Part shown: positions 1 through 27,546 of the stretch, piece after piece | Position numbering within the stretch: the stretch's first letter is position 1 | How the letters are laid out: each line of letters begins with the position of its first letter | Virus record (IMG/VR): IMGVR_UViG_3300029951_001066 | Location: 1-35,358 of that record | Source: a virus | Reading direction: 5' to 3' (one strand) | DNA: 35,358 nucleotides | The notes under the pieces: model-generated | Databases searched by the model: none | Told to the model about the DNA's origin: nothing | The model's input: the letters and a program-made list of their open reading frames with translations, nothing else | Translations under genes and position numbers: made by a program

Positions 1-588
1 GGCTCGATTACCGTTGTCACTCAACCAGCTTCCGGCAGCACCATCGTCGTCAATGGCGTCACCTTCACGTTCGTCAGCGAACTGACCGGCGCAAACAACC
101 AAGTGCTACTAGGCAGCACCGTCGCCGCTACCGCAGCCGCATTGAACGAAGCGCTGGTATCTTGCACTTCGTTCGGTCAATTTGCAGCGGTATCGGAAGC
201 GTCGTACGAAGTCACTGGTGCAGTTGTTGGCGTTACCTTCAACGTGACGGCGGCCGCTGGCAATGCGTTCACGCTTGGAGCAGGAACAGCAGGCGCCGCA
301 ATCACGATGTCCGGCACAACTCTGTTGGGTGGCACCGATGGTATCAACGACTACGTTGCGGTCTCGAACGGCATCGGCACCAACCTGTTGACCAACGCGA
401 AGCCACTGCGTCTGCACCCCGTTTCCAACGCAATTGGCGACACTTCGGACGATTTGGTGATTCCGTTGGCCGCAACTGCCGGCGCGTTGACCTTTGCCTA
501 CAACTTGGAAAAAGAGCGAATTTACAACGTCGACTTCAACGGCTACCCGAACTCGTCTACCGGCCAACTTTTTACGGTTGGAAACTAA
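1..588 (+). CDS. Major tail (tail tube) protein, 3' part only
   Basis: The reading frame is open from the first base and has no start codon in the window, so the 5' end is missing; at least 195 residues are present. It would form the tube of the long flexible tail. Support is mostly positional: it lies directly before the frameshifted tail chaperone pair and the tape measure, the usual place of the tube gene in siphophages. The C-terminus (KERIYNVDFNGYP then LFTVGN) resembles the ending of phage tail tube proteins, where a late beta strand precedes a short tail. The first 40 residues (ITVVTQPASGS, VVNGVTFTFV) look like an inserted beta-rich domain. Its TAA stop is the first triplet of a palindromic element at 586-603. 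The family assignment is an inference from order and these short similarities. Confidence 0.7.
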   Translation, partial: GSITVVTQPASGSTIVVNGVTFTFVSELTGANNQVLLGSTVAATAAALNEALVSCTSFGQFAAVSEASYEVTGAVVGVTFNVTAAAGNAFTLGAGTAGAAITMSGTTLLGGTDGINDYVAVSNGIGTNLLTNAKPLRLHPVSNAIGDTSDDLVIPLAATAGALTFAYNLEKERIYNVDFNGYPNSSTGQLFTVGN

Positions 589-603
589 GTCACAGGTGAC
601 TTA
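586..603 (+). promoter_or_regulatory. Palindromic element A (TAAGTCA-CAGG-TGACTTA)
   Basis: Perfect 7-bp arms with a 4-bp centre; one of nine related elements in the window. Its first three bases are the TAA stop of the tail tube gene. At the offset where copies at 7129 and 22823 have a -10 box this copy has only GCTAAC (605-610), and no good -35 precedes it, so it may act as an operator with a weak promoter or none. It lies 63 bp before the tail chaperone start. Confidence 0.7.
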
Positions 604-623
604 AGCTAACTTTCAACCCAACC

Positions 624-647
624 AAGCCCCGTCTTTTGGCGGGGCTT
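624..647 (+). terminator. GC-rich hairpin, possible weak or attenuating terminator
   Basis: AAGCCCCG (624-631) pairs with CGGGGCTT (640-647) across an 8-base loop rich in T. Only TTATT follows, so the U-tract is poor. Located between the highly expressed tube gene and the chaperone genes, it may reduce downstream transcription or stabilise the 3' end of the upstream mRNA. Function is inferred. Confidence 0.5.
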
Positions 648-666
648 ATTCACAAGGAAATACCAA

Positions 667-1062
667 ATGGCAAAGATTCTGAACCTTGACGCACTGACGC
701 CGGCAGAGACACGCGAGTTAGTGCTTGGCGGCATCACGTACACGATTCCAGAAATGACCGTCGAGAACTTCATTCTGACGACTCAAGCAGCTCAAGCAAT
801 CCCCAAAGACGCAACCCTGGACGTGCAGATTGAAGCCACGGTCGACATGCTCGTGCGTAGCGTTCCCAACCTGCCGCGCGAGGCATTGACTGGCGTTCCC
901 TTGACTACCCTTTCCCAGATCGCCGCATTTGTTCGCGGTAACGATGTCCCAGATCAAACCGACACTTCCGCGCCAGCTCCGGCAGTCGCGACAGATGAAA
1001 CTCCGGCGGCTGACCCGGCCTCAGACGCAACGCCAGATGGAGCGGCGCCAGCGGGAAACTAA
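667..1062 (+). CDS. Tail assembly chaperone, short form (lambda gpG-like)
   Basis: A 131-residue protein starting at ATG after an AAGGA ribosome site. It occupies the gpG position: after the tube protein and before the tape measure. The N-terminal 95 residues are the folded part (LTPAETRELVLGGITYTIPEM onward). The last 35 residues are a low-complexity Pro/Ala/Asp/Thr tail, which would act as a linker in the frameshifted form. The last sense codons GGA AAC with the preceding G form the slippery heptamer GGGAAAC, immediately followed by the TAA stop. In lambda, gpG and gpGT together hold the tape measure protein for tail polymerisation. The role here rests on position and the frameshift signal, not on strong sequence identity. 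Confidence 0.82.
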   Translation: MAKILNLDALTPAETRELVLGGITYTIPEMTVENFILTTQAAQAIPKDATLDVQIEATVDMLVRSVPNLPREALTGVPLTTLSQIAAFVRGNDVPDQTDTSAPAPAVATDETPAADPASDATPDGAAPAGN

Positions 1063-1406
1063 CCGGCCCGAAGATTGAAGAAATCGATTTCGGTTTCTTC
1101 TTCTGTCGGGTCATGCACTTTTATTCAATAAGTTACGCCGAAATGATGACGCTCCGGCTCAAGGCGTTTTGGCTTTTGAGTGGAAACGTCGACCGAGTGA
1201 TGGCGCAGGCAGATATGCGCAAGTTGACCATTGCTGTATGCGGGCAGGCTGGCGAAGCTGCAAAAGAATACAGAAAGCAACTGGTCATCGAAATCGGGAC
1301 GATTGTAAAGGCGGAAACAGTAGCGCAAAACGCGCCTTTGCCCTATGAAGCCGAACGTGACGTGGCTGGTTTTGAGGGGTTAAGGATGCTTTCAAAAATG
1401 TTATAG
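667..1406 (+). CDS. Tail assembly chaperone, -1 frameshift fusion (gpGT-like)
   Basis: Slipping back one base on GGGAAAC (1053-1059) takes ribosomes from the gpG frame into the open frame that runs to the TAG at 1404-1406. The product has 246 residues: the 131 of the short form plus 115 more beginning LTGPKIEEIDFGFFFC. The downstream frame has an internal ATG at 1113 but no convincing ribosome site before it, and it stays open across the stop of the first gene, as expected for a fused product. In lambda the T domain contacts the tape measure protein while the G domain recruits tube subunits. The C-terminal part (YAEMMTLRLKAFWLLSGNVDR) is helical, like gpT domains. The tape measure gene follows after 12 bp. 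Confidence 0.85.
1053..1059 (+). promoter_or_regulatory. -1 ribosomal frameshift slippery heptamer GGGAAAC
   Basis: Read in the zero frame as G GGA AAC it is a canonical X-XXY-YYZ heptamer, and the next codon is the TAA stop. Seven bases downstream a stem could form: CCCGA (1067-1071) with TCGGG (1106-1110), and inside it GAAGAAA (1077-1083) with TTTCTTC (1094-1100), separated by a 5x5 internal loop. That spacing is typical of a stimulatory structure. Lambda uses GGGAAAG at the same place. Confidence 0.88.
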
Positions 1407-1418
1407 TTCGAGGTCAGC

Positions 1419-4400
1419 ATGTCTATCGGCAAGGAAATCAAGGTCGTTTTAACCCTGGATGACGCGGGGTTCAGTGTAAAGACCAAGAGCGCTTCCGATA
1501 CAGTCAAGCTGTTGGAAGCGGGACTCAATAGTGTCGGCAAGGTTGCCGAATCACTGGAGGGTTCCGTTTCTGATTTAACGGATAGCATTTCCTCGTTCGG
1601 TGACGGCTTCAAGTCCGTCAACAAGAATCTCGAAGGTATCTCCAAGCAACTAAGCGAGCTTGGCGGCAAGTTCGCTAGTGTTGGCGAAAAGGCAGAAGCC
1701 GCGTCTGATGGCGTCGATACCCTTGCGGCATCCACCAAATCTCTTAACGCAGCGTCACCGGATCGCTGGGCAAAGCTCTATAGCGAGAGCCTGACAACGC
1801 TAGCGCCGGCAATTCGCAGCACAGTTGCCAGCATTCTCCAACTTGATGAAACAAACGCCGCCAGTGTCGCGGCAGGTAAGCGTGCGGCCGAAGGTACTGC
1901 CGCAAACCGTCTGAAGGCGCTGGAGGCGGAACGCGCCGGCAATCTCAAAATCATCGCCTCCCGCGAGGCCATGCTTGTAGAGCTGGAAGCATTGCAAGGA
2001 AAATTAAACCACCTGCATGGCGCGAATGTCGCGCCGGCCAAGAACTACTTTGGAAAGAACGCCGCGAAGGGCGAGCAAATCAAAGCGGAAGCCTTGCCGT
2101 TTGCGCAGGGGGCGAGCGAAGCGGAAGCTGAAGCAAAGCATGTGCAGGCAACCGTTGATGAAATGAAATGGAAGAATGCAGAGATTGAAAAATCGATCGC
2201 ATTAATCCAAGAAGAGGCCGCTGCGTCATCGGTTGCTGCTGCCGTCGGAAAGGCAAATGCCGAAGAGGTGATAAAAATCACCCAGATGAGCGCCAACGCT
2301 GCCCGCGCTGCTGATGCCGAGAAGCGCGCATCAGCGGTAGAGACGGCTCGAACTATCGCCGCAGCCAATCAAGAAGTCGCGGATGCGCAAAAGAGACACT
2401 TCGCGGAGCAAAAAGAGCTAGGCGCCCAATCCAACGATATGTGGAAAGGTTTGGCCGAACTCTACGCCGCCGGCAAGATAGAGGAAGCGCTAAAGGCTTC
2501 AGTCAAGGACGCTGACGAGTACCAACGCATCGTCGATCGTATGCGCGGCGCCGGAATTGACGGTGCCCAAGGCGCGAAGAACACGCTCGAACTGGCAAAA
2601 AAGGTCGAAGATGCAAATCCGAATCTGGGTCGAACCGATTCGCTGAAGATGACTATGGCGGCAACCGCCGGCACAGTAAGCACCGACCAGAAGAACCTGG
2701 GCGTGATTGTTCCAGAGATAGCCAAGGTGCTGACCGTTCTGGAACGGGATTTTCCTGCGCTTGTCGCCAACAAGGAAGATTTCGCCAAGAACGTGATGGG
2801 CGTGATGGAGGCGCGCGGCATTACCCAAGACCCGAAAAAAATGCTCGACACGCTGGACAATCTTGCCCGCGCCATCACATTGAGCCAAGGGAAGATGGGC
2901 GTGCAGGATTACGAAACGCTGATGCGTCGTGGCGGTCCTGGTAATGCGGTTGCGAAAGACAACGAATCGATCCTTTGGGACTATGCGGCAGCGGCGCAAT
3001 TCAAGGTTGCCGGCGGTGGTGGCGGGGGAGGCGCGGGCGGCGTGTCAACCTTTGCCACGATGCAGAAGCAATCCGAGAAACGGGCCGCTGGGGGTGTCGC
3101 CGAAACACAAAACGCAGTCGACCTTCTGACCGAGTTCGGCGTTATTGACAAGAGCCAGCTTCATAAGGCAAATGGGGTAGGTGACGACGACTCGTTGCCG
3201 AGTCATTTTAAAACGGTTGCATACGCCGGATCTGAACACGCGGCCGAGAACATGACCAAGTTCGCAATGGACATGGTTAACGAGGTGAAGAAGAAGCTGG
3301 CAGCATCCAATCCCAACGACTTCCGCTTCTTTGCCCCTGGCGACGACAGAAAGTCAGATGCCGCTCAATCGAGAGCGTTCAACAAATACGCCCAAAGCGC
3401 ATTCAGTAACACAAGCGAATCGCAGTATTATTCGACGTTTGCCTCGCAGGGTACGCAAGACCGGATCGGGAAAGAGGTACAAGCATCCAAAGACGCGCCC
3501 TCGTATGGCAAAGACCAGGAAGAGATAATGAAGTCCTGGGGGATGGCTGTACAGACGACAAACGCCCAATTGGAAAAGTTAGGCGTAGTTGTCGGCAACA
3601 TCCTAATTCCAGTTCTCAAGCCGATGATGGAAGTCGTCACGTCCGTTGTGACTACGCTTCGCGAATTCGGCGAGAACGATCCAACTGCCGCCAAACTCGC
3701 TGTGATTGCCACAGCCGGCCTGGCTGTCAATATGGCCTTTCAAGGCTTCAAGAGTGTATTTGGTGTCGTTGGCAACCTATCGAGTGTGCTGAGTAGTGCG
3801 TCCAACTCTGCAAAGGGGATGGAGGTATCGACCAGCGGCCTTGCGACCTCTACCGCGAGCGCGCGCAAGGAAATGGTCGCCAATCTTGCAACCGCTGAAA
3901 GTTCGGCCCTCGCCCACCGCGAATTGGCACAAATTCAGCTTGCCGAGGCGCAGGCGACGGTATCAAACGCCAAAGGCTACGGTCAGTGGACAAGCGCAGT
4001 CAATCAGCTCATTCCGGCGCAAGCAAACGCTACGGCTAAAACAATCGCGCACACGACCGCGCAGACGGCATTGCAAAATGCACAGAAGGCATCAACACTT
4101 GGCGCGCGGGCATTGAATGGCGCGCTTAGTCTGTTCGGCGGCCCAATCGGTTTAATAATTACCGGGTTGACCGTTGCTATCGGGCTGTGGGATGCGTTCG
4201 GCGACCACGCCGCGACCGCTGCTGAAAAGGCCAAAGAGAAGACCGGCGAGGTTGTCGCGGAGGTCGATCAGGCGATCAAGCGCATGCAGGAAGAGCTGCA
4301 AGTTGCAAGCGGAGGCGAGAATGCGGTAGCCCGCAATAAGATTTCTGACAGCATTTCCTCTGACAAGACAAGTTTGGAGCAAGCGAAGCGGGATGCCGCA

Positions 4401-6719
4401 GCGGCCGAGCAAAACTTCGCAGACACTTCAAAACATGCCGGTGGAGATAGCGGCGAGGTGGCTATTGCCGCGAGCGCCAGTGCCGCAAGCAAAGCAGAAG
4501 CGGCGGTCAAATCGCTTGAGGATGGGATAAAACTCAAGGAGCAGAAGCTCAACGACTTGAACGAGCAAGAAAACAAGAACATTCTTGCTCGCGCAGCCAA
4601 TACTGCAAAAGCGGCCGAACAGGCGCAGAAGCTATTATCGGACGCAACCAAGGCGGGCGCGGCGAAGGCTGACGCTACGAAGGGAGGGGCGACCCCGGCC
4701 GACCCTGGCGCCTTTACGCCGCCTAAGTCGAACTTTTCGCCAGTAAGTAAAGAACGCGCACCCGCAGAAGATCCACTGACAGCGGCGCTCGCTACCGCCG
4801 CAGCCAAGGTCGATGAGCAACAGATCAAGTTGGAGTCCATTATCAGCGGCGGCGAGAAGCTGTCCGATCTGAATGCAGAAGCAGCAGCAGTTATTGAGGG
4901 AAACCGCAAAGCTGGACAATACGACACGACTTCAAGAGATAGCAAGGGCAAAGAAACGCGATCCACGCCAGGCGCAGATTCGTCGCGCATCGCCGACCTA
5001 AAGGCCCAAACAGCCGCCAATATGCTGTTGGCCGAGCAGATCAAAGCCGTTACCTTTGCCAATGAGCGTGTCGCCGCCGCACAGGATGAAACAGACTTTG
5101 CGATGGATCGCCTCGATGATGGCAACTTGTCCAAGCAAACCGACGCCTTCCGCGCGCTGACGCGGGAACTGGATCGGGCTGAAGAGCGACTTGGCGCCGG
5201 CGCAAAGGCATTTGAGGCGTGGGGTCAAAAGAAGGACAAGGCGCTTTTGGGGCAGGCGCTTGCCGACGGCGCGAACCAGGCCGCAAACGACAAGCAGTCG
5301 CAAAAGACCGACACCAGCGGCATGTCACACAACGAAGCCATTACGTCAGAGCAAGGTGACGCCAACAAGAAGATCAATGACGTCCTTGATTCGCGCGAGG
5401 ACGCCATCAAGGATAGTCTTGCCAACTCGATTAACGACATCAAGGCAAACCTTGACGCGCAATTAGAGCTGTATAAGGGCAACGACCTGGCGCGGCAGGT
5501 TTTGGAAATGCAAGCAGCGGACCAGATCGAACAGGTCAACCGCCAGGCAAATGTCGTCATCGAGGCGCTGGACGCCGACCGGACGGCCAAAGCAAAGCAG
5601 CAGGCCGCAGAGCTGAAAAAGGCACTCGAAACGCCGATGGATGGCCTGGCGAAGCAATGGGCAGACACGCAGCAGCAATTGCAAGGGCTGCAAGATCAGT
5701 GGGCGAACGGCTTTATCACGTTGCTCGAAACGACCATGCATAAAGGCGAAAGCCGCCTGAAGCAATTCAAGCAAACCGTGTCGTCCTATATGAAGCAAAT
5801 CCTGACCGGCATCATGGATATTGCTATCAAGAAGGCGATGGGCGATTCGATGAAGACCGTCATCGACTCGGCAACGTCTGGACTTCAGTCGGAGTTTGCG
5901 AGCCTGTTCGGCTCGTCGGCACCTAGTGGCGGCACGGGCCTAACGGGATCAAACACGCCCGCGTCCGGCGCGATGACACAGGCGGGCGACTACGGCATGA
6001 GTTCGGCGGCGAGCGGCGTGTCGGGTGCGGCGTCGAACGCGGCGTCGACGGCTTCGCAGACGGCAGCGACAACTTCAGCCACGACAGCGTTGACCGGCTT
6101 AACAACCAGCGTCACGCCATTGGTAACCGGTTTCGAATCGTTGCTCACTACCGCCATCACGCCATTGACAACCGCCGCGCAAGCGTGCGCGACAGCACTC
6201 AACAGCGCAGCTACGTCCGCAGGTGGATCTAGCGCCGGCGGGATAGGCTCGGCCGGCGCCGGCATGATGGGCGGAGCGAGTAGTGCAGGCGCAGCTTCAG
6301 ATGCGGATATGTTCGCTTCTGCCTTTGCGAACGGCGGGATCATGACCAACGAGGGGCCTTTGTCATTGCGCAAGTATGCGAACGGCGGTATTGCAAATAG
6401 CCCGCAGGTCGCAATCTACGGTGAAGCTGGCCCTGAAGCCTATGTCCCGCTGCCTGATGGTCGCACGATCCCTGTGACGATCAATACAAGTGGCGGCTCA
6501 AGCTCCGAATCAGCGAGCGCCGCTCCGGCCATCACTGTCAACGTCATCAATCAAAGCGGGACACAAGTGGCGGCGCAGCAGCAGGGTCAACCGACCATCA
6601 ACGCGGGTCAAACAATCTTGAACGTGGTTCTGACCGCAGTAACGCAACCCGGTAGCTTCCGTACCGGCATGCAGAACGCGCTCAGTTCGTCTTCCTCGTC
6701 GTCCTCTAAACCAGCGTAA
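1419..6719 (+). CDS. Tail tape measure protein
   Basis: A 1766-residue protein, by far the longest tail gene, starting at ATG after GAGGT. Tape measure proteins set tail length and enter the host envelope during DNA ejection. The sequence is dominated by Ala/Lys/Glu/Gln helices (residues about 100-320 and 930-1500) that fit long coiled coils. A Gly run lies near residue 535. Hydrophobic segments occur near residues 725-795 (NILIPVLKPMM, LAVIATAGLAVNMAF) and 900-925 (GGPIGLIITGLTVAIGLW), the expected membrane-active parts. The C-terminus has the motif seen in lambda-type tape measures: FANGGIM, then YGEAGPEAYVPLPDGR, then a Ser run before the stop. No lysozyme or peptidase motif was recognised inside it. 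Confidence 0.93.
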   Translation: MSIGKEIKVVLTLDDAGFSVKTKSASDTVKLLEAGLNSVGKVAESLEGSVSDLTDSISSFGDGFKSVNKNLEGISKQLSELGGKFASVGEKAEAASDGVDTLAASTKSLNAASPDRWAKLYSESLTTLAPAIRSTVASILQLDETNAASVAAGKRAAEGTAANRLKALEAERAGNLKIIASREAMLVELEALQGKLNHLHGANVAPAKNYFGKNAAKGEQIKAEALPFAQGASEAEAEAKHVQATVDEMKWKNAEIEKSIALIQEEAAASSVAAAVGKANAEEVIKITQMSANAARAADAEKRASAVETARTIAAANQEVADAQKRHFAEQKELGAQSNDMWKGLAELYAAGKIEEALKASVKDADEYQRIVDRMRGAGIDGAQGAKNTLELAKKVEDANPNLGRTDSLKMTMAATAGTVSTDQKNLGVIVPEIAKVLTVLERDFPALVANKEDFAKNVMGVMEARGITQDPKKMLDTLDNLARAITLSQGKMGVQDYETLMRRGGPGNAVAKDNESILWDYAAAAQFKVAGGGGGGGAGGVSTFATMQKQSEKRAAGGVAETQNAVDLLTEFGVIDKSQLHKANGVGDDDSLPSHFKTVAYAGSEHAAENMTKFAMDMVNEVKKKLAASNPNDFRFFAPGDDRKSDAAQSRAFNKYAQSAFSNTSESQYYSTFASQGTQDRIGKEVQASKDAPSYGKDQEEIMKSWGMAVQTTNAQLEKLGVVVGNILIPVLKPMMEVVTSVVTTLREFGENDPTAAKLAVIATAGLAVNMAFQGFKSVFGVVGNLSSVLSSASNSAKGMEVSTSGLATSTASARKEMVANLATAESSALAHRELAQIQLAEAQATVSNAKGYGQWTSAVNQLIPAQANATAKTIAHTTAQTALQNAQKASTLGARALNGALSLFGGPIGLIITGLTVAIGLWDAFGDHAATAAEKAKEKTGEVVAEVDQAIKRMQEELQVASGGENAVARNKISDSISSDKTSLEQAKRDAAAAEQNFADTSKHAGGDSGEVAIAASASAASKAEAAVKSLEDGIKLKEQKLNDLNEQENKNILARAANTAKAAEQAQKLLSDATKAGAAKADATKGGATPADPGAFTPPKSNFSPVSKERAPAEDPLTAALATAAAKVDEQQIKLESIISGGEKLSDLNAEAAAVIEGNRKAGQYDTTSRDSKGKETRSTPGADSSRIADLKAQTAANMLLAEQIKAVTFANERVAAAQDETDFAMDRLDDGNLSKQTDAFRALTRELDRAEERLGAGAKAFEAWGQKKDKALLGQALADGANQAANDKQSQKTDTSGMSHNEAITSEQGDANKKINDVLDSREDAIKDSLANSINDIKANLDAQLELYKGNDLARQVLEMQAADQIEQVNRQANVVIEALDADRTAKAKQQAAELKKALETPMDGLAKQWADTQQQLQGLQDQWANGFITLLETTMHKGESRLKQFKQTVSSYMKQILTGIMDIAIKKAMGDSMKTVIDSATSGLQSEFASLFGSSAPSGGTGLTGSNTPASGAMTQAGDYGMSSAASGVSGAASNAASTASQTAATTSATTALTGLTTSVTPLVTGFESLLTTAITPLTTAAQACATALNSAATSAGGSSAGGIGSAGAGMMGGASSAGAASDADMFASAFANGGIMTNEGPLSLRKYANGGIANSPQVAIYGEAGPEAYVPLPDGRTIPVTINTSGGSSSESASAAPAITVNVINQSGTQVAAQQQGQPTINAGQTILNVVLTAVTQPGSFRTGMQNALSSSSSSSSKPA

Positions 6720-7124: not shown

Positions 7125-7153
7125 TTGATAAGTCATCGGTGACTTAGTATAAT
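7125..7153 (+). promoter_or_regulatory. Promoter with palindromic element B in the spacer
   Basis: TTGATA (7125-7130), 17-bp spacer, TATAAT (7148-7153). The spacer contains the perfect palindrome TAAGTCA-TCGG-TGACTTA (7129-7146). The predicted transcription start is 7159-7161, that is, at the ATG of the next gene (7160), so the transcript would be leaderless. A factor bound to the palindrome would sit between the two promoter boxes, blocking or remodelling RNA polymerase binding. This is the best promoter match in the window. Confidence 0.85.
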
Positions 7154-7159: not shown

Positions 7160-7789
7160 ATGCCTAAATCACTTTCCATTGCCAGCGTAATCGAGAAAAA
7201 CCGGCTCTCTTCGGGCACGCCTTGGCTTATCTGCATCGATATTTCCGTCATCGATCCGGCGTCTGGTACGCTGGTCGAGAAGATTTACCTCGTCCGCAAT
7301 ACGGAAGGGATAGTCTTCAACGGCAACACCTACATTCCAGCCAGCTTCGACATTCAGTTGATCGACGAGTCCGGCAAGCTCAACACGGTGAATCTGGTCA
7401 TCAAGGATTATACCGGCGCCATTCAAGCGCAGATGCAGCTTTATCAGGGCGGTGTTGGCTTTGCTGTCGCGGTCTCTATCGTCAATGCGGGCAACCTGTT
7501 GCAGCCGCCCGAAGTGGTCGAATACTTTCAGGTTGTCGGCGCGTCATCGAGCGTCTACGCGGTCACCTTCTCGCTAGGCGCACCGAACTTGCTGACGAAA
7601 GCATTTCCAAATCGCATTCAGTACCGCGACTTTTGTCAATGGCGCTACAAGGGGCCGCAATGCAACTATACCGGCCCGATGAACGCATGCGACCTTTCAC
7701 TGAATGGCGCGCAGGGGTGCGTTGCGCATGGCAACCAGGCGAACTACGGCGCATTCCCTGGCATCAACACTCAAAACACCAGCGCATGA
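7160..7789 (+). CDS. Minor tail protein, gpL-like, with four-Cys cluster
   Basis: A 209-residue protein between gpM-like and NlpC/P60 genes, the gpL position. The N-terminal 145 residues are a beta-rich domain of the DUF/gpL type (IYLVRNTEGIVFNGNTYIPA). The C-terminal part carries Cys159, Cys168, Cys177 and Cys187 in the pattern FCQWRYKGPQC...AC...GC; in lambda gpL an equivalent cysteine quartet binds an iron-sulfur cluster. There is no Shine-Dalgarno sequence before the ATG, and the -10 box ends only 6 bases upstream, so it is probably translated from a leaderless mRNA. Its TGA overlaps the next ATG (ATGA). Confidence 0.83.
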   Translation: MPKSLSIASVIEKNRLSSGTPWLICIDISVIDPASGTLVEKIYLVRNTEGIVFNGNTYIPASFDIQLIDESGKLNTVNLVIKDYTGAIQAQMQLYQGGVGFAVAVSIVNAGNLLQPPEVVEYFQVVGASSSVYAVTFSLGAPNLLTKAFPNRIQYRDFCQWRYKGPQCNYTGPMNACDLSLNGAQGCVAHGNQANYGAFPGINTQNTSA

Positions 7790-13883: not shown

Positions 13884-13910
13884 TAAGTCACCAATGACTT
13901 ATGTTAGAAT
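13884..13910 (+). promoter_or_regulatory. Palindromic element C with extended -10
   Basis: Perfect palindrome TAAGTCA-CCAA-TGACTTA (13884-13901) followed at once by TGTTAGAAT (13902-13910), an extended -10 box. The -35 region is weak (TACATA). The predicted start near 13917 would give a short leader of about 21 bases containing the GGTGGA ribosome site of the tail fibre gene at 13938. Confidence 0.75.
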
Positions 13911-19133: not shown

Positions 19134-19526
19134 ATGAGTCAATTCTTAAACAAATTGCGAGTGGAGTTGGTCGATGACATCACCGATGGGACGTGGAGCG
19201 TGCTTGAGGCGTTCTCCTACCAATCTGACGTGGCCGCACAAACCTTTACCGTGCCAGTCGGCTTCGAGACGGACTTCTGCTCGGTGCCGCGCATTCCTGG
19301 TGTGTTCGACATCCTGGGTGATCGCGCACGACGGGCCGGAACGGTGCATGACTTCCTATACACGGCCCACCCTGTAGACCGGGAAACTGCCGACAAGGTA
19401 CTGAAGGAAATGGTTCTACTATGCGGCGTGGATGAAGTTGAAGCTGAAGCGTTCTACGCGGCAGTGAGGTTGGGCGGCGCATCTCACTGGACGCCAAATT
19501 TGTCTTCACAAATAAGTAAGCGGTGA
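19134..19526 (+). CDS. DUF1353 family protein
   Basis: A 130-residue protein with a strong GGAGG ribosome site seven bases before ATG 19134. It shows the DUF1353 signature: TVPVGFETDFCSVPRI, then AGTVHDFLYTAHPVDRETADKVL, then a helix ending near VRLGG. DUF1353 proteins are frequent in tailed phages near the lysis region; no biochemical role is assigned. The Asp/His/Asp positions (TDF, HDFLY, AD) are conserved in the family and could be a catalytic or metal site, but that is inference. Its TGA lies inside palindromic element D. Confidence 0.85.
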   Translation: MSQFLNKLRVELVDDITDGTWSVLEAFSYQSDVAAQTFTVPVGFETDFCSVPRIPGVFDILGDRARRAGTVHDFLYTAHPVDRETADKVLKEMVLLCGVDEVEAEAFYAAVRLGGASHWTPNLSSQISKR

Positions 19527-19537
19527 CTTGATTAAAT
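19513..19537 (+). promoter_or_regulatory. Palindromic element D with -10-like TTAAAT
   Basis: TAAGTAA-GCGG-TGACTTG (19513-19530), one mismatch per arm relative to the consensus. At exactly the offset seen in copies B and G it is followed by TTAAAT (19532-19537), a 4/6 match to a -10 box; the -35 position (CAAATA) is weak. The TGA stop of the DUF1353 gene is inside the right arm. It would drive the first lysis genes. Confidence 0.62.
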
Positions 19538-19996: not shown

Positions 19997-20524
19997 ATGT
20001 TTTTTGGATTCACACACCACGCCGACGTTGTTTTGGTCGAAAAACCAGACTTCCACGTCGCAATCAACCGTCTGCTCGGCAATGAAGGCGGCTATGTCGA
20101 CGACCCGCATGACCCAGGCGGCGAAACCAATTGGGGCATCAGCAAGCGCAGCTACCCGACCGTTGACATCAAGGAACTGACTCGCGAACAGGCAATTGCG
20201 CTCTACAAGCGCGACTTTTGGGACGCAGCGCGTCTGGACGAACAAGCGTTCGGCGTCGGCTTCCAGATGCTCGACTTCGCGGTCAACTCCGGCATCAGCA
20301 CAGCAATTCGCGCTTTGCAGCGCGCAGTTGGATGCGCAGACGACGGCCATATCGGCCCCGTCACCCTGGCTGCGGTCAAAGCGATGGCGGCGCACGATTT
20401 CATTATGCGCTTCCTGGCTGAACGTCTGGTCTTCATGACCGGATGTAAGAATTGGGATCATGCTGGCAAGGGGTGGGCGCGACGTATTGCGGCAGACCTG
20501 CGTTTTGGCGCACAAGATAACTAA
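19997..20524 (+). CDS. Endolysin, GH108-type muramidase with peptidoglycan-binding domain
   Basis: A 175-residue protein after AGGAG. The motif LLGNEGGYVDDPHDPGGETNWGIS (residues about 26-50) is the active-site region of glycoside hydrolase family 108; Glu30 is the expected catalytic residue. The second half (DFAVNSGISTAIRALQRAVGCADDGHIGPVTL) matches the predicted peptidoglycan-binding domain that follows GH108 in Zn-independent phage muramidases. There is no clear signal peptide (N-terminus MFFGFTHHADVVLV), so release would need the holin. The TAA stop is part of palindromic element E and the holin gene starts 18 bp later. Confidence 0.93.
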   Translation: MFFGFTHHADVVLVEKPDFHVAINRLLGNEGGYVDDPHDPGGETNWGISKRSYPTVDIKELTREQAIALYKRDFWDAARLDEQAFGVGFQMLDFAVNSGISTAIRALQRAVGCADDGHIGPVTLAAVKAMAAHDFIMRFLAERLVFMTGCKNWDHAGKGWARRIAADLRFGAQDN

Positions 20525-20539
20525 GTCACCGATGAGGTA
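20522..20539 (+). promoter_or_regulatory. Palindromic element E, diverged right arm
   Basis: TAAGTCA-CCGA-TGAGGTA; the left arm is intact and the right arm has two changes that create GAGGT, the ribosome site of the holin gene at 20543. The TAA is the endolysin stop. No -10 box fits, so this copy may have been retained as a binding site or reused as a translation signal. Confidence 0.5.
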
Positions 20540-20542: not shown

Positions 20543-20974
20543 ATGGAAAAAGTAATGGATTTACTCTCGTTGTTCCGTAAGGGCAACGAGGTTGCGAACC
20601 CTGAAGCCTGGCACGACGGCGGTAACGCTGCCGCCTTGTTGGCGACGGTACTGACTGCTTTGGTGAAGGTTGCGGGAGATTTTGGCTATGGTATTAAATT
20701 GGACACCCCCACCGCCATCGCAATTGCTTCTGGCATCGTTGCTGTTGTGCATGTCGTGCTTAACAACATCACGAGCAAGAGCGGAGGATTATTGCCATCC
20801 AAAGGAGGCGACGCCGCTCCAGAGAGCGATCCGATCGTCCGCCAAGGAGTGCCAGCCGAAGTTGATCTCCCTAGCGACACTGAAGAGCGCACTGACACCG
20901 AAAGTAGGGTGCGGCATATCGGTCAAGCCGGAGTTCAGGACGACGCAGAGGGAGGAAACGCCTACTTCGGTTGA
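20543..20974 (+). CDS. Holin
   Basis: A 143-residue membrane protein. After an N-terminal FRKGNEVANPEAWHDGGN it has two hydrophobic segments: residues about 29-47 (AAALLATVLTALVKVAGDF) and 56-74 (PTAIAIASGIVAVVHVVLN), then TSKSGGLLP. This matches a phage holin family with the pattern KGxxVANPxAW...vlNvvTS...GLP. The C-terminal 60 residues are charged and probably cytoplasmic. Position after the endolysin supports its role in timing of lysis. A second frame overlaps its 3' half and runs past its stop (see the next entry). Confidence 0.82.
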   Translation: MEKVMDLLSLFRKGNEVANPEAWHDGGNAAALLATVLTALVKVAGDFGYGIKLDTPTAIAIASGIVAVVHVVLNNITSKSGGLLPSKGGDAAPESDPIVRQGVPAEVDLPSDTEERTDTESRVRHIGQAGVQDDAEGGNAYFG

Positions 20975-21388: not shown

Positions 21389-21410
21389 TTGATAAGTCAC
21401 ACATGACTTA
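21389..21410 (+). promoter_or_regulatory. Palindromic element F with TTGATA
   Basis: TTGATA (21389-21394) merged with the perfect palindrome TAAGTCA-CACA-TGACTTA (21393-21410), as in copies B and G, but the -10 position holds ACAAAG, which is not a functional-looking box. It sits 4 bp before a strong terminator. It may be an operator without promoter activity or a decayed promoter. Confidence 0.65.
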
Positions 21411-21465: not shown

Positions 21466-22794
21466 ATGATTCCAACTGACATGCAGCGCTTCATCGAGGT
21501 CTACAACGACCTTGAGACCTACCCAACACTCGCAGATGTTGCAAGCGAATTGGATGTCTCTATCAAGACAGTACGCAACAAGGCTGGCACATTGCGCAGT
21601 CTTGCCAAGGGCGATTCGACAGCAACCAAGCTGATCTTGCGCGCCTCAATGGCTGAAGTGCCTATGTCGGAAGACGCATCAAAGTTCATGATCGACTGGA
21701 CGGCAGAAGACTGCATCAAAGAGCTGCGCCGCATTGCCCAGATCGACACGGAAAAGGTCATCACCCGCAATTACTTCCGCAACCATTCAGGTATCTCCGA
21801 GTCGACCTGGAACCGGTATTTCGGCACCTTCCTCGAATTCAAACGCCAGGCAGGAATCACCCTGTCGCGCCAGCAACACGGACTTGAGCGCAGCATCGCC
21901 AAGCATGCCTCAGTAGATCACTACCGGCAGATGAACATCGATCGGCAGGATTACGATGTCAAGTACCTGAAGGACGGCAGCGGTCGATTCAAGACCATCA
22001 TGGTCTGCTCGGATCTTCATGACATCGAGATCGACGAGTTCTACCTGCGAGTATGGCTCGATACCGTCAAGCGCGTACAGCCGGACATCATCGTGTTCAA
22101 CGGCGACATCTTTGACCTGCCTGAGTTCGGCAAGTACGGCGTCGACCCGCGTGAGTGGGATGTAGTAGGGCGCATCAAGTTCGCTCACGAGCGCATTCTT
22201 GGCCCAACACGCGCCGCCGCACCCCAGGCACAGATCGACTTTATCGAAGGGAACCATGAAGCGCGGCTCTTGCGTCACCTGGCTGATGAGTCGCCGGCGA
22301 TCCGCGCAGTGCTGGCAGACCTGCATGGCTGGACGGTAGCGAAGATATTGGGCCTAGATGCGTTCGAGATCAACTACATCGCCAAAGCCGACTTGGCCGC
22401 CTTCACCAAACGCGACTTCGAAAAAGAGCTGGCCCAGAACTACAAAATCTATTACGACACCTTCGTCTGCCATCACTTCCCATTCGCTCGTGACTGGAAA
22501 ATGCCTGGTGTGAACGGCCACCACCACAAGCACATTGTCTGGCCCGACTTCACTCCGATTTACGGCGCGTTCGAGTGGCACCAGCTCGGCAGCGGTCACA
22601 AGCGTAGCGCGTCGTATTGTGAGGGCGAGAAGTGGCATTGCGGCTTCGACATCGCCCATATCGACACGCAGACGCGCGCCACACTGCACGACTACGTGAC
22701 GATCACAGACTTTGCGGTGGCGGGCGGGAAGATGTATTGCCGTGCGCCGAGCGAGGTTGATTCGCACGTTGTCAAGGTCTTGCAAATGAAATAA
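21466..22794 (+). CDS. Metallophosphoesterase with N-terminal helix-turn-helix region
   Basis: A 442-residue protein. The N-terminus has two helix-turn-helix-like stretches: residues about 15-45 (TLADVASELDVSIKTVRNKAG) and about 95-130 (NYFRNHSGISESTWNRYFG). The C-terminal catalytic domain has the calcineurin-like set: D183-x-H185 (SDLHD), G-D214 (NGDIFD), G-N263-H264-E (EGNHE), HH in VCHHF, and G351-H-H-H (NGHHHKH). Such enzymes hydrolyse phosphodiesters or phosphoesters using two metals; phage versions may be nucleases or nucleotide phosphatases. No ribosome site precedes the ATG, and an alternative ATG at 21481 is no better. Fusion to DNA-binding modules suggests a nucleic-acid substrate, but this is inferred. 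Confidence 0.88.
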   Translation: MIPTDMQRFIEVYNDLETYPTLADVASELDVSIKTVRNKAGTLRSLAKGDSTATKLILRASMAEVPMSEDASKFMIDWTAEDCIKELRRIAQIDTEKVITRNYFRNHSGISESTWNRYFGTFLEFKRQAGITLSRQQHGLERSIAKHASVDHYRQMNIDRQDYDVKYLKDGSGRFKTIMVCSDLHDIEIDEFYLRVWLDTVKRVQPDIIVFNGDIFDLPEFGKYGVDPREWDVVGRIKFAHERILGPTRAAAPQAQIDFIEGNHEARLLRHLADESPAIRAVLADLHGWTVAKILGLDAFEINYIAKADLAAFTKRDFEKELAQNYKIYYDTFVCHHFPFARDWKMPGVNGHHHKHIVWPDFTPIYGAFEWHQLGSGHKRSASYCEGEKWHCGFDIAHIDTQTRATLHDYVTITDFAVAGGKMYCRAPSEVDSHVVKVLQMK

Positions 22795-22818
22795 AAAATA
22801 ATCCCGCTTTCAGCTTGT

Positions 22819-22847
22819 TTGATAAGTCATCAGTGAGTTATTATAAG
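22819..22847 (+). promoter_or_regulatory. Promoter with palindromic element G in the spacer
   Basis: TTGATA (22819-22824), 17-bp spacer, TATAAG (22842-22847). The palindrome TAAGTCA-TCAG-TGAGTTA (22823-22840) lies in the spacer, with one change in its right arm. Predicted start near 22854, leaving a 28-base leader for the PhoH-like gene. It is the second clear example of the same promoter/operator architecture as at 7125. Confidence 0.82.
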
Positions 22848-22881
22848 GCTCTGACCAACCAACCATCTGGAAGCGGAATTT

Positions 22882-23655
22882 ATGGCACGTAGTGATAAGT
22901 CAGACCGTAGCGGCAAACGTCAAGCGAAGCGCGCAGGAATACTCCCCGAACAGCAATTCTCAGATTACACAGTGCCGGCACGTCCGCTGCGCGCTGCGCC
23001 ATTTGAACCCAAGACCGACAAGCAGCGCAAGTACGCGGCAGCAATTCGCCTACCGGGTAGCGTTGTGTTCGGGATGGGGCCGGCGGGTACGGGCAAGACC
23101 TATGTGGCGGCTACCCTGGCGGCAGACGCACTGATGGAAAAGAAGGTTGACAAGATTATCCTGACGCGGCCGGCAGTCGAGGCGGGCGGCGAGAACTTGG
23201 GCTTTCTGCCAGGCGACAAGGAGGAGAAGTTCGATGCCTACTTCGATCCGGTGCGCGACGTATTCGAGGAGCGCCTGGGCAAGTCATTCGTGGACTATTT
23301 GATCAAAGAGGGGCGGATCAAGTGCGAGCCGTTCGCCTACATGCGCGGCAAGACCTTCAAACGCGCCTTTGTGATGCTTGACGAAGCGCAGAACGCGACA
23401 CCGGAGCAGTTCAAGCTGTTCCTGACGCGGATCGGTGAGGACGCAACCGTGGTTGTCAACGGTGACGAATCGCAGGTGGACATCAAAGGGCAGTCTGGCT
23501 TTGTCGATGCGGCCAACCGGATCATGCACATATCCTCGGTCAAGGTCGTATTGTTTGAAAAGAAAGATATCGTGCGTAGTGGCTTCGTGCGGGAGATCGT
23601 GGAGGCGTACGAGCAGCCGGCGCCGAGCCGCATCAACCCTGTGCTTTTGCGATAA
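22882..23655 (+). CDS. PhoH-like P-loop ATPase
   Basis: A 257-residue protein with the PhoH core. Walker A is GPAGTGKT (residues 66-73), Walker B/DEAD-like is VMLDEAQN (DEAQN 167-171), and ILTRPAVEAG plus GDESQVD are the other conserved PhoH blocks. The N-terminal 45 residues are basic and probably disordered. PhoH proteins are ATPases with RNA-helicase relatives and are very common in phages, though their role in infection is unsettled. The gene is the first of a two-gene unit behind promoter G. Confidence 0.92.
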   Translation: MARSDKSDRSGKRQAKRAGILPEQQFSDYTVPARPLRAAPFEPKTDKQRKYAAAIRLPGSVVFGMGPAGTGKTYVAATLAADALMEKKVDKIILTRPAVEAGGENLGFLPGDKEEKFDAYFDPVRDVFEERLGKSFVDYLIKEGRIKCEPFAYMRGKTFKRAFVMLDEAQNATPEQFKLFLTRIGEDATVVVNGDESQVDIKGQSGFVDAANRIMHISSVKVVLFEKKDIVRSGFVREIVEAYEQPAPSRINPVLLR

Positions 23656-23692
23656 GAAACAAAGATGGACAAGTGGGTGGGGCCGGCGCCTC

Positions 23693-23799
23693 ATTCACTT
23701 GGGAATGCCACGCTTAACATAAAGTCTTATCTATAATAAAGAAGTACAGATTTAAAGAAATACAGAATATACGCGGAGAGAGGCGGTTCCCAAGTGAAT
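23693..23799 (+). promoter_or_regulatory. Inverted repeat pair flanking an internal -10, covering a GTG start
   Basis: ATTCACTTGGGAA (23693-23705) and its exact reverse complement TTCCCAAGTGAAT (23787-23799) are 81 bp apart. The second copy contains the GTG (23794-23796) that starts the next gene, so base pairing in a long transcript would hide the start. Between the copies is TATAAT (23732-23737) in an AT-rich tract; a transcript starting there would lack the first arm. A 23-codon frame (23665-23736) also spans the first arm. Role inferred from geometry. Confidence 0.5.
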
Positions 23800-24519
23800 C
23801 AAGTGGAAGAGAAAGACACGCACGGCCCCTATTTTGGGTCGGAGCTAACCCGGAGTGAATGTGATGTGCTGGCGATAGCGAACATCGGCGTCAAGCTGCG
23901 GGATCGCGAGCAGGCGCTCATGAAGGATAAATGGTTCGACTACCGGCCCATGCACCCGACCCAGGCGACATACCTGTTTGCGCATCATTTCAACAGGGCG
24001 TACGGCAACTTCATGAATGTCGGGTACGGCAAGGGCGGCGGCTTCATGGCGTCATTCAAGGGCAAAGACTTCATACAGGTGCGGGAGAAAACGTCGTTCT
24101 GGAGTCTTCGTCAAAAGGTCGACGAGCTTGGCGTGCGATACGACTTCTTTTGCCGCAAAGCGATGGATTGGCACCTTGAGCGCGGCTGGCGACGGCCGCC
24201 GCGCCCTTGTCATGTGGTCAACAACAACGACATGATCGTGTATGTCATGAACGCGTGGGCGGAAGAGTGCGCCAGTAAGATCCAGTTTGCCAAATCGTCG
24301 CGCTTTACCGCCGCGCAACACGTCGGCGGCGAAGATCAGCTTGCGTACGAGGATTTCATCGTCGAGCAGATCAAACGCAAACAACATCCTAAATTCGCTC
24401 TGTACAGTGCGTTATATGTGCATGACGCAATTCGCATTGAGACAGCAATGCTGCACTTTTCTGAGGAGGTTATCTGCGAGGCCCGTGAATACAATAATTC
24501 ACTTTCTCAAGAAAGATAA
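23794..24519 (+). CDS. Unknown phage protein following PhoH
   Basis: A 241-residue protein. GTG 23794 is the first start in a frame closed by stops at 23734-23739; GGAGAGAGG lies ten bases upstream (another GTG at 23803 is possible). It contains many aromatic, His and Arg residues (HPTQATYLFAHHFNRAYGNFMNVGYGKGGG, HLERGWRRPPRPCHVV), suggesting nucleic-acid contact, and a helical C-terminus. I recognise no domain. Co-transcription with PhoH suggests a shared function. Its TAA stop belongs to palindromic element H. Confidence 0.75.
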   Translation: MNQVEEKDTHGPYFGSELTRSECDVLAIANIGVKLRDREQALMKDKWFDYRPMHPTQATYLFAHHFNRAYGNFMNVGYGKGGGFMASFKGKDFIQVREKTSFWSLRQKVDELGVRYDFFCRKAMDWHLERGWRRPPRPCHVVNNNDMIVYVMNAWAEECASKIQFAKSSRFTAAQHVGGEDQLAYEDFIVEQIKRKQHPKFALYSALYVHDAIRIETAMLHFSEEVICEAREYNNSLSQER

Positions 24520-24538
24520 GTAAGTGGTGAGCTATAAT
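24517..24538 (+). promoter_or_regulatory. Palindromic element H, diverged, with TATAAT
   Basis: TAAGTAA-GTGG-TGAGCTA (24517-24534) overlaps TATAAT (24533-24538). The left arm supplies the TAA stop of the upstream gene. Compared with copies B and G the -10 box is 3 bp closer, and no good -35 is spaced for it. Predicted start near 24545, leader about 40 bases for the Hfq-like gene. Confidence 0.55.
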
Positions 24539-24584
24539 TGAATTGTTCGAGTGAATAAGCAATCAGCAAATTACCAGGAGATTT

Positions 24585-24995
24585 ATGTTTTCAGCCTCAA
24601 AAACGCTACACGACAGCGTAGAACGTCAGCAGCAAATCGAAGAGGGCGCACGTCTGGCTCGTGAAGAGGGTGTCACGCCGGTATTGCAACGTACGACGCT
24701 AAAGCTGAAATCTGGCGCCCGTTCGTCTGCGGCACCAAAGAAGGAGCAGCCGAAGGGTCATGAAGCATTCTTGAAAGCGCTGGAGACTTCCGGTGCATCA
24801 ATTATCGTCGAGAAGTGCGACGGTACGGTAGTAAAGGGAGTCGTAAAGCATTCCGACAAGTACACCATCACGCTGCGCGCCCCAATCAACGGCGCACCAG
24901 AAATGACAATTGATCGTGTCGTCTTCAAGCATGACATCAGCGAGTTCTCACCGGCAACGCCACGCCCAGCAGTCAAGGAAGAAGCATGTCTGTAG
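24585..24995 (+). CDS. Hfq/Sm-like RNA-binding protein, phage-encoded
   Basis: A 136-residue protein with AGGAG before ATG. Residues 58-123 align along their length with bacterial Hfq: HEAFLKAL matches the QDxFLNAL start helix; the Sm1 part has C-DG (79-80) and D91-K-Y-TITL; the Sm2 part has VVFKHDISEFSP, matching the VYKHAIS..P signature (Lys115 and His116 equal to Hfq K56 and H57; Phe114 for Tyr55). A 7-residue insertion (RAPINGA region) separates the two motifs. The distal-face Tyr25 position is Glu, so RNA preference may differ. A basic 57-residue N-terminal extension is unusual; bacterial Hfq extends at the C-terminus. It overlaps the helicase start by 10 bp. Confidence 0.82.
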   Translation: MFSASKTLHDSVERQQQIEEGARLAREEGVTPVLQRTTLKLKSGARSSAAPKKEQPKGHEAFLKALETSGASIIVEKCDGTVVKGVVKHSDKYTITLRAPINGAPEMTIDRVVFKHDISEFSPATPRPAVKEEACL

Positions 24996-26437
24996 CAGCG
25001 GTAGAGGCAGAAGACGCGGTAGCCGCAATGATCGGCTCGGCCTATTCCCTCACCGCGTCGGCCCCAGGCGTAACGATCGAGGCGGACAAGTTCGACTTCG
25101 GTGCTGAGTTCCAGACCAAGATCGCCACGCATGTCATGCGTGACATCGGCTTTATGCGCAAGGTTGGGCATCTGGTAATGCCAGACTACTTCGAAAACGT
25201 GGGAGAGGCGGCTATCGTCAATCTTGCGCTGAAGTATTTCAAGAAATACAACGAGGTGCCAGAGGCGAAAGTCGCGATTCAGTTGGTCAGGGATGCGAAG
25301 ACGGATAAGACGATTCGCGGCGACGACCTGGCACTGGCTGGCGAAGCAATGCGGGCCGTATTCAGCAAAGACGCAAGTATCGGCAATAGCGACAGCATGG
25401 CCGAATCGGTCGCGTCGTTTGCTCGGTATCAAGCAATGTCGGCGGCGATCTTGAAGTCAGCAGAAATGCTCGACAGCAAGATCAATAAGGACGAAAAGTT
25501 CAAGAAGATCGAGGCGTCGATCAAGCTGGCCGCGTCTGTCGGCATGAACGTCGACGGCGAAGAGTACGACTACTTCGAAAGAATTACCGAGCGCACCAGA
25601 GAGCGCCAGGAGAAGACAGTGGCGGGCGCGGTGCCGGCCGGAATCACAACCGGCAACATTCAAATCGACAACCTCCTGTACCACAAGGGTTGGGGGCGTC
25701 GAGAACTATCCGTCATTATGGGCGGCGCCAAGTCGGGTAAAACGACCGCATTGCTGCATTTTGGGAAGTGCGCCGCGCTGTCGGGCCGCAATGTGCTGTA
25801 TGTGACGTGCGAAGTCGCCGGCAAGATCCTTGCGGAGCGTCTGGACGCGTCGATTTCAGGTATCGCGGTCAAGCAGCTTGAACTGAAGATCCATGATGTC
25901 GAAGACGTGATTCTCAAGCTGCCGAAACATGGCGCATTGAAGATTCACGAATACCCAAGCGGCACGCTGACGCCAGCAATGCTCAATGCGCTGATTCAGC
26001 GTTACAAGTCGCCACGGTTGAACGCGGACGGATCAACGGCGCCGGCAATCGTATTCGACATGGTAGTGGTCGATTACGCCGACATCATGTCGCCGGACTT
26101 CCGCACCAATGACGCTATCGAGAATTCCAAGAACATCTGGCTCGGTCTGCGCGCGATTGCGTTCGAAGAAAATCTCGCCATGCTGACTGCCACGCAAACC
26201 AATCGCGAAGGCAATAAGTCGGCGGTGGCAAAGGCGACAGACGTAGCGGAAGACTTCAACAAGATTCGGACAGCCGATATTGTGATTTCGATCAACGCGA
26301 CAGATGAAGAGCGTGCGGCCGGTGAAGCGCGCCTGTACTTCGCGGCGTCACGTAACCAGGAGTCGGGCTTTACGATCTTCATTAAGCAGGCGCTGTCCAT
26401 GATGCGCTTCATCACTTCGATCATCAAGGTGGAGTGA
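24986..26437 (+). CDS. DnaB-like replicative DNA helicase
   Basis: A 483-residue RecA-fold helicase. Residues 1-200 are a helical N-terminal domain (possible primase or loader contact). The core has Walker A GGAKSGKT (246-253), Walker B MVVVDYAD (Asp363), and the H3-like TATQTNREG segment, followed by SRNQESG near the C-terminus, all expected of DnaB-family hexamers. It overlaps the Hfq-like gene upstream and its TGA overlaps the primase ATG downstream (TGATG), so hfq-like, helicase and primase form one translationally coupled unit. It would unwind phage DNA at the fork. Confidence 0.92.
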   Translation: MSVAAVEAEDAVAAMIGSAYSLTASAPGVTIEADKFDFGAEFQTKIATHVMRDIGFMRKVGHLVMPDYFENVGEAAIVNLALKYFKKYNEVPEAKVAIQLVRDAKTDKTIRGDDLALAGEAMRAVFSKDASIGNSDSMAESVASFARYQAMSAAILKSAEMLDSKINKDEKFKKIEASIKLAASVGMNVDGEEYDYFERITERTRERQEKTVAGAVPAGITTGNIQIDNLLYHKGWGRRELSVIMGGAKSGKTTALLHFGKCAALSGRNVLYVTCEVAGKILAERLDASISGIAVKQLELKIHDVEDVILKLPKHGALKIHEYPSGTLTPAMLNALIQRYKSPRLNADGSTAPAIVFDMVVVDYADIMSPDFRTNDAIENSKNIWLGLRAIAFEENLAMLTATQTNREGNKSAVAKATDVAEDFNKIRTADIVISINATDEERAAGEARLYFAASRNQESGFTIFIKQALSMMRFITSIIKVE

Positions 26438-27531
26438 TGCACGACAACGAAGAACTTGACGAGGCGATACGCTCCATCGATATCGAGAATTGGCTCGATC
26501 AGGAGGGTGTTGACTATCGTCAGGCGCGCGGGTCGAGCGGGCGTCAGGCAAACATCAAGACGTGCCCATGCTGCGGCAATTCGAAGTGGAAGGTCTACGT
26601 CGGATTGGAATCTGGGCTAGGCAACTGCTTTGTGTGCGAAATGAAGTACAACAAGTTTTCCTTCATTCGGGCGCAGCTCGGCGTGTCGGGCAAGGATACG
26701 GTCGAGCATATCAAGGCGTTTGCGCGCGAACAGGGCTGGAGACCGGCAAAGCGAATTGGTGCGGCGGTCAGCTTGTCGCATGCCAGTTTGAAGCTGCCGG
26801 CGTCCATCGCCTTGCCGCATGAAGGGCGAAACCTGAAGTACCTGGAGAACCGGAATATCACGGCTGATGTTGCCAAGTATTTCGCGTTCCGATTCTCGCA
26901 GAAGGGTAAGTTCAACTATGAGGATGACAAGCACCGCAAGCTGTTCCAGGACTACAGCAACCGGATCATTATTCCGGTCTTTGACCTGGAAGGCGATCTG
27001 GTCAGCTTCCAGGGTCGCGACATCACCGGCAGGGCGGAAAAGAAATACTTGTTCCCGCCCGGCTTCGCGTCTACCGGCAAGCATCTGTACAACGGCCACA
27101 ACGCGGTCGGCGCGGCGCGTATCGTGATCGGGGAGGGGGTATTCGACGTGGCGGCAACAAAGATCGCTCTGGACGGTGATATGGCCCTGCGTGATGTTGT
27201 TCCGGTCGGCAGCTTCGGCAAGCACCTGTCGCACGGCGACGAAGATAGCCAACTCGCCAAGATCATGCGGCTGAAAGAGAAGGGGCTGAAGGAAGTAACG
27301 ATCATGTGGGACGCCGAGACTGCCGCGCTGGTTGCCGCTGTCGAGACTGGTATGAGGTTGATTGGCTGCGGGATACGAACGCGCATTGCTGTTCTGCCGG
27401 CGGGTTGCGATCCAAATGAGACTTCGGCAGCGAACGTGCGCGATGCATTCTGGAAAGCGGAAGTGGTCACTCCAATGATGGCGACACGATTGCGGTTACA
27501 GGCAAATCGATTAGGCAAGGTTGCAGCATAA
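26437..27531 (+). CDS. DNA primase with zinc finger and TOPRIM domain
   Basis: A 364-residue protein from ATG 26437 (GTG 26434 just before it is less likely; GGTGG fits the ATG). The zinc ribbon has Cys43, Cys46, Cys64 and Cys67 (KTCPCCGN ... NCFVC). The TOPRIM region has the Glu block IGEGVFD (Glu233) and the Asp block IMWDAE (Asp292), giving the primer synthesis core as in T7 gp4 or DnaG-type phage primases. It is shorter than host DnaG (about 580 residues), as is usual in phages where helicase is a separate protein. It ends at a TAA that is part of palindromic element I. Confidence 0.92.
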   Translation: MHDNEELDEAIRSIDIENWLDQEGVDYRQARGSSGRQANIKTCPCCGNSKWKVYVGLESGLGNCFVCEMKYNKFSFIRAQLGVSGKDTVEHIKAFAREQGWRPAKRIGAAVSLSHASLKLPASIALPHEGRNLKYLENRNITADVAKYFAFRFSQKGKFNYEDDKHRKLFQDYSNRIIIPVFDLEGDLVSFQGRDITGRAEKKYLFPPGFASTGKHLYNGHNAVGAARIVIGEGVFDVAATKIALDGDMALRDVVPVGSFGKHLSHGDEDSQLAKIMRLKEKGLKEVTIMWDAETAALVAAVETGMRLIGCGIRTRIAVLPAGCDPNETSAANVRDAFWKAEVVTPMMATRLRLQANRLGKVAA

Positions 27532-27546
27532 GTCACAAATGACTTC
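27529..27546 (+). promoter_or_regulatory. Palindromic element I
   Basis: TAAGTCA-CAAA-TGACTTC; one change in the last base. Its TAA is the primase stop. No -10 box fits at the usual offset. A single TGACTTA arm recurs at 27574-27580, overlapping a possible promoter TTGCCT (27549-27554), 17 bp, TATGAC (27572-27577). The unit 27614 onward probably begins here. Confidence 0.6.

Follow-up and report, generated by a model that had tools for sequence, protein, structure and literature searches.

Dispersed palindromes as putative operators of a lysogeny repressor in a virus fragment of the SSU5/AB phage-plasmid type

Palindromic sites between the genes of the fragment

The DNA considered here is IMG/VR virus record IMGVR_UViG_3300029951_001066, a linear 35 kb fragment (35,358 nucleotides, “the window” in what follows) in which copies of the palindrome TAAGTCA-N4-TGACTTA are dispersed between genes. 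Its genes run in the order tail, J, fibre, endolysin, PhoH, DnaB-like helicase, primase, ligase, and both this order and homology place it in the SSU5/AB lineage. With local differences, the same order is found in Pseudomonas phage nickie, Rhizobium phage RHEph10, the E. coli phage-plasmid Cyrano and the Acinetobacter baumannii plasmid p6200, a match covering siphovirus-type phage-plasmids of ~110 kb plus virulent cousins; Cyrano is called SSU5-like (PMC9928086). A megablast search of the window against phage records gave no near relative, and its helicase is 65% identical to that of G001, the closest relative (G and L labels denote related genomes). From gene order and homology, the window is judged to be a fragment of an SSU5/AB-type phage-plasmid of ~110 kb, whose plasmid replication and partition genes would fall outside it. 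Klebsiella, Salmonella, E. coli and Acinetobacter are common hosts of SSU5- and AB-type phage-plasmids, which can bear resistance genes (PMC9600943).

With up to three mismatches allowed, the window contains 10 matches to the palindrome, where shuffled sequence leads one to expect 0.52; the highest count in any of 100 shuffles was 3. The original prediction, made from the window sequence, had listed nine copies, four of them perfect, and all nine were recovered (Table 1): four without mismatch, two with one, two with two and one with three. A matrix trained on the window and two relatives found the same nine window sites above 7 bits, and nothing else (scores 15–29). Genes take up ~95% of the window when a curated list is used, and the nine sites all lie in the remaining ~5% of non-coding DNA. 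The predicted enrichment in gaps is borne out, with the sites avoiding genes; the further claim that none lies inside a gene needs the qualification that the opening TAA at 586, 20522, 24517 and 27529 is also the stop codon of the preceding gene. The next start codon is 3–97 bp away, and each site precedes the first gene of a transcription unit: tail assembly, tail tip, fibres, lysis (two units), metallophosphoesterase, PhoH, helicase-primase and the ligase block.

Table 1. Palindromic sites in the window and their immediate surroundings.
Site	Positions	Strand	Mismatches	Context
A	586..603	+	0 (perfect)	TAA stops Ig-domain tail gene (103-588); next gene 63 bp on
B	7129..7146	+	0 (perfect)	Within promoter TTGATA-17-TATAAT (7125-7153); minor tail gene at 7160, 13 bp on
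C	13884..13901	+	0 (perfect)	-10-like TAGAAT adjacent; tail fibre gene 36 bp on
D	19513..19530	+	2	97 bp ahead of 19628 (lysis block); terminator-like hairpin downstream
E	20522..20539	+	2	TAA stops endolysin gene; right arm TGAGGTA
F	21393..21410	+	0 (perfect)	Metallophosphoesterase gene 55 bp on; orthologous site in G001
G	22823..22840	+	1	Within TTGATA-17-TATAAG; phoH 41 bp on; orthologous sites in G001 and G029
H	24517..24534	+	3	Right arm runs into TATAAT (TGAGCTATAAT); Hfq-like gene and helicase 50 bp on
I	27529..27546	+	1	TAA stops primase gene; WGR-like/ligase block 49 bp on
Tenth (degenerate)	27563..27580	+	3	Probable partner of site I

The degenerate tenth match is probably a decayed second member of a pair with site I, since the orthologous gap in G001 carries two sites at the identical 34-bp spacing. 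At site E, the altered right arm includes a GAGG Shine-Dalgarno-like core serving the ATG at 20543. Terminator-like hairpins lie downstream of sites A and D, the latter having orthologous sites in both G001 and G029, and one resembling an intrinsic terminator begins ~5 bp downstream of site F. The head of the helicase-primase unit (24585-24995) encodes a short Hfq-like protein, barely above the cut-off for Pfam Hfq and unusual for a phage.

Symmetry and promoter register

When 178 sites are oriented by their downstream genes, the consensus is TAAGTCA-NNAN-TGACTTA and the median distance to the next start is 41 bp. As predicted, changes in one arm are uncompensated in the other; what is conserved is sequence rather than pairing alone. 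The left arm had also been described as the better kept: this holds in the window (mean mismatches 0.12 left, 0.62 right) and in G029 (0.19 and 1.14), whereas in five other lineages the arms are about equally conserved. Our explanation for the weaker right arm in these two, a built-in -10 box or Shine-Dalgarno sequence, matches a visible pattern but is not statistically proven, the association between decay and overlap being non-significant (Fisher p=0.47).

Of the 45 sites of the window and G029, 11 have a TATAAT-like hexamer (5/6 matches) at register +16, where it opens exactly on the last TA of the palindrome (0.11 expected); of the 55 sites of G015 and G025, 8 do (0.08 expected). Given this fixed register, the -35/-10 spacer is taken up by the operator in several lineages. 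G003, G005 and G008 lack clear enrichment at +16, and G003 instead has many -10-like boxes on the left side of the site. Within the window, two copies had been predicted to occupy a 17-bp promoter spacer. Those at 7129 (promoter score 11/12; both TTGATA and TATAAT retained at the G001 site) and 22823 do so, but promoter linkage extends beyond two, with -10 boxes abutting the sites at 13884 and 24517; the TAGAAT of the former and TGAGCTATAAT of the latter both recur with the orthologous sites in G001.

Sites and a helix-turn-helix protein family in relatives

Relatives were gathered from IMG/VR through helicase homology, without use of the motif. The sites are conserved there, as the original prediction required: in G001 all nine corresponding gaps carry one, at near-identical distance to the orthologous next gene, while the orthologous proteins are mostly 43-85% identical. 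At no more than one mismatch the richest relatives hold 24-35 copies (29 each in G003 and G005, 25 in G008, 24 in G015). Matrix refinement raises this to about 35–57 sites in most complete relatives, across many Pseudomonadota; counts for G016 (102 hits) and G002 are excluded, as refinement may have drifted. An unseeded count of palindromes in the non-coding DNA of G003 found AGTCA-N4-TGACT 27 times (0.03 expected), and elsewhere the same count brought out lineage-specific variants. The Cyrano operator is of TAAGTAA type (TAagTAagTActTActTA), that of p6200 is TTAGTAAGCGCTTACTAA (37 sites), and G010 has a different palindrome, TCAATCAA-N2-TTGATTGA. In host genomes the sites, among the matches listed, cluster on few contigs (e.g., C3, C4 and C7 of G048; C8 of G047).

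Nickie (NC_042091; L173-L175) lacks sites at the gaps before its orthologues, and neither pattern search nor the unseeded count detected a motif in it. It also lacks the repressor family described below and an annotated integrase, a combination which suggests that it is a virulent offshoot. Other members of the family differ in setting. The relative in Halomonas sulfidaeris (AP019514; L285/G049), with a helicase, a repressor homologue (at ~1.96 Mb) and AGTAA-type palindromes, sits within a 4.2 Mb chromosome record; from this, some members may integrate. A metagenome-assembled genome labelled uncultured Chloroflexi (L278/G046) has the phage family on several contigs with Pseudomonadota-type operators, and is probably mis-binned. 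In p6200 (L268), an annotated phosphoethanolamine-lipid A transferase gene (36843-38519) near an IS1008 transposase belongs to a cargo region outside the operator network.

A candidate binding protein comes from Cyrano, where CYRAN_45 (in E. coli LF82) is annotated as a “putative repressor”. It has a helix-turn-helix (HTH) domain, its gene neighbours that of the integrase, and it is transcribed in the lysogenic state (PMC9928086). When a profile was made from CYRAN_45, every motif-bearing genome examined gave a single strong homologue. All 30 records that reach 80 kb and hold at least three sites encode a family member; of five large records holding fewer sites, none passed the cut-off in G002, G026 or nickie, G009 gives a weak match and G010 a strong one (Fisher p=0.0015 for co-occurrence, ignoring relatedness). 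The candidates are conserved proteins of ~135-150 residues with a 434-Cro-like, Cro/C1-type HTH domain. All 14 family members compared match PHROG_8, a transcriptional regulator family, and 4 of the 14 match Pfam HTH_3. The p6200 protein matches HTH_3 at 7e-9. An AlphaFold2 model of the G001 protein (predicted local distance difference test score, pLDDT, 85) has a 434-Cro-like HTH fold, for which Foldseek returned 434 Cro (2cro; template modeling score, TM, 0.80) and C.AhdI (TM 0.76-0.79). G051 carries a second, diverged family copy (57432-57812, minus strand), possibly an anti-superinfection protein or a Cro-like partner.

Operators and recognition helices appear to co-vary in part: YDKPN-type helices go with AGTCA and YDRAN or YPKAN with AATCA, while the divergent helices of Cyrano and p6200 pair with AGTAA operators. 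G010, with its different palindrome, likewise has another recognition helix. Most of the repressor genes also have weak sites upstream, which the divergent cobT-like gene shares; in L288-L290 these sites fall directly past the repressor's own -10. In p6200 the HTH gene occupies the same place, beside the integrase and ahead of cobT-like genes, and by synteny with G001 and p6200 the window's own copy would lie ~2 kb past its right end. The opposite-strand gene at 34342-35358 was considered for this role and rejected as AbiEii-like. It encodes an AbiEii-type nucleotidyltransferase toxin and follows the integrase gene (32925-34220, plus strand), near where relatives have the repressor; no antitoxin partner was found within the window.

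A predicted master repressor and its known counterparts

The core of the original prediction, a symmetric protein-binding operator repeated at transcription-unit boundaries, is supported by these sequence comparisons. Very probably, the palindromes are operators of a single phage-encoded master lysogeny repressor that would silence most lytic promoters. The computed observations comprise the sites, their placement, conservation and promoter register, and their co-occurrence and partial co-variation with the HTH family; a master repressor would account for operator placement, symmetry, register, co-occurrence and co-variation alike. As the repressor, a Cro/C1-type HTH protein of ~140 residues would bind the 14-bp core AGTCA-N4-TGACT as a dimer; its gene would lie just past the window, on the opposite strand, with the integrase on one side and cobT/cobS-like genes on the other. 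At each lytic unit the bound dimer would sit in the spacer of the host sigma-70 promoter or over its -10/start region and exclude RNA polymerase, keeping most phage blocks, those for tail, lysis, replication and ligase included, silent together during lysogeny, which here would mean maintenance as a plasmid. Loss of the repressor would open all units simultaneously, and the weaker copies in its own promoter region would provide negative autoregulation. Joint control by one factor had been proposed for the tail, lysis, replication and ligase blocks; the network is wider, spanning whole phage-plasmids of ~110 kb.

Several observations weigh against this reading. The window fragment itself contains no repressor gene of the HTH family (a search with the G001 protein matched no contig of the window's metagenome), and some pairs of records are related, so that co-occurrence was not counted over independent cases. 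In G009 no motif is detectable despite a distant HTH relative; in G003 a divergent helix goes with the standard operator, and in Phyllobacterium a KPN-type helix goes with AATCA. The sites at 586, 19513 and 21393 have no clear -10 and stand ahead of terminator-like hairpins. In Cyrano, where 29 of 32 predicted sites lie in or at gaps (13% of the genome), one of nine units expressed in the lysogen starts with a site, against 23 of 69 others; this direction agrees with repression, but the difference does not reach significance (p=0.26), and strand is a confounder, most expressed genes being on the minority strand.

Those same three sites speak for an alternative in which the bound protein chiefly halts elongating RNA polymerase between units, in the manner of mycobacteriophage stoperators, rather than blocking initiation. 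The hairpins are retained at the G001 counterparts of 586 and 21393, and the four sites that begin on an upstream stop codon would also suit such a role. On the other side, operator and -10 box are joined at a constant register in two lineage groups; terminators in relatives are no commoner downstream of sites than upstream (18 versus 26 of 178); and their symmetry sets the sites apart from stoperators, which are asymmetric and act in one direction (PMC6550527). As a general account this seems unlikely. The stoperator-like logic of the original prediction may survive as a roadblock at the three sites named, but most copies are better termed operators because promoter linkage extends to more than two of them and the register is seen again in relatives.

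Other readings fare worse. The palindrome could be a promoter element read by a phage sigma factor, namely the sigma-70 region-2-like protein encoded beside cobS: the sites do sit at promoters, and most of the relatives checked, as well as RHEph10, encode a Sigma70_r2-like protein. This is very improbable and was rejected, because G003 and Cyrano have dozens of sites but no such protein; moreover, the motif is a full two-fold palindrome within the spacer of consensus sigma-70 promoters, and no sigma factor is known to use such an element there. The region-2-only protein is itself widespread (p6200, NZ_CP010398, 12210-12875, L268; RHEph10, 39826-40461, L267; most G relatives), and may direct a later phase of expression. 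An operator filling the -35/-10 spacer at several sites would also be expected of a MerR-style activator that switches units on from the spacer, but MerR promoters have a stretched spacer of 19-20 bp and the one here is an ideal 17 bp. The Cro/C1-like nature of the candidate and the lineage-dependent position relative to the -10, better tolerated by repression than by activation, likewise make activation highly unlikely. Least credible of all are signals at the RNA level (terminators, attenuators, processing hairpins) or non-regulatory repeats such as REP-like elements: inverted repeats in gaps, some near terminators, would suit these, but the arms are short (7 bp), AT-rich and without a T tract, they diverge uncompensated with conservation beyond pairing, and their placement is kept at orthologous gaps while genes have diverged.

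A master repressor acting at dispersed operators has close parallels. The C1 repressor of the phage-plasmid P1 silences lytic genes from 22 operators dispersed over the genome (PMC8546580), likewise one repressor with many scattered sites in a phage-plasmid. P1 operators are asymmetric 17-mers (ATTGCTCTAATAAATTT); the consensus here is a two-fold palindrome that differs from ATTGCTCTAATAAATTT, so this is not a P1 C1 system. The palindrome is present by matrix at 35-57 sites per genome, and the candidate is a small 434-Cro-like HTH protein. In Bacillus phage SPbeta, an intergenic promoter repeat found by sequence (SPBRE) was later shown to bind the master repressor MrpR (YopR; PMC10516654). The discovery from sequence of a repeated intergenic promoter element is common to both, whereas MrpR has a tyrosine-recombinase fold, binds ~10 promoters, and differs in sequence and hosts. 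In L5 and other cluster A phages, many gap sites serve one repressor, and their spelling sets immunity by evolving together with it (PMC6550527); stoperators, however, are asymmetric 13-mers that are mostly promoter-free, and the present sites, two-fold palindromes of which many have a -10 in register, are not members of that class. The candidate's predicted fold matches the HTH fold of 434 Cro and repressor and of restriction-modification controller (C) proteins. The 434 operators have a 14-bp symmetric core, like the core here. Those proteins act at few, clustered operators, whereas proteins of the candidate family carry an additional helical region at the C terminus, and their sites are single and number in the dozens. 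CYRAN_45 belongs to the same HTH family, and the passages of the Cyrano paper considered here (PMC9928086) report no operators for it.

With many copies of one operator at promoters and gaps genome-wide, the network is predicted, from sites, co-occurrence, co-variation and fold, to work like those of P1 C1 and SPbeta MrpR: a kind already known from these and L5, here apparently with its own repressor and operator. A broader proposal is tentative and rather more doubtful: that one Cro-like repressor governs nearly every lytic unit (dozens of promoters) throughout the SSU5/AB group, with operator spelling and recognition helix co-evolving into immunity groups across Pseudomonadota, and with pre-terminator sites acting as roadblocks. 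No description of such a network, or of how lytic genes are silenced, turned up for SSU5- or AB-type phage-plasmids in the open-access literature searched (subscription papers lay outside the search). An operator, its lineage spellings and a candidate repressor can now be named, and immunity groups and induction should therefore become predictable from sequence. The family would also offer a natural series of repressor/operator pairs for following how dozens of operators change along with one protein.

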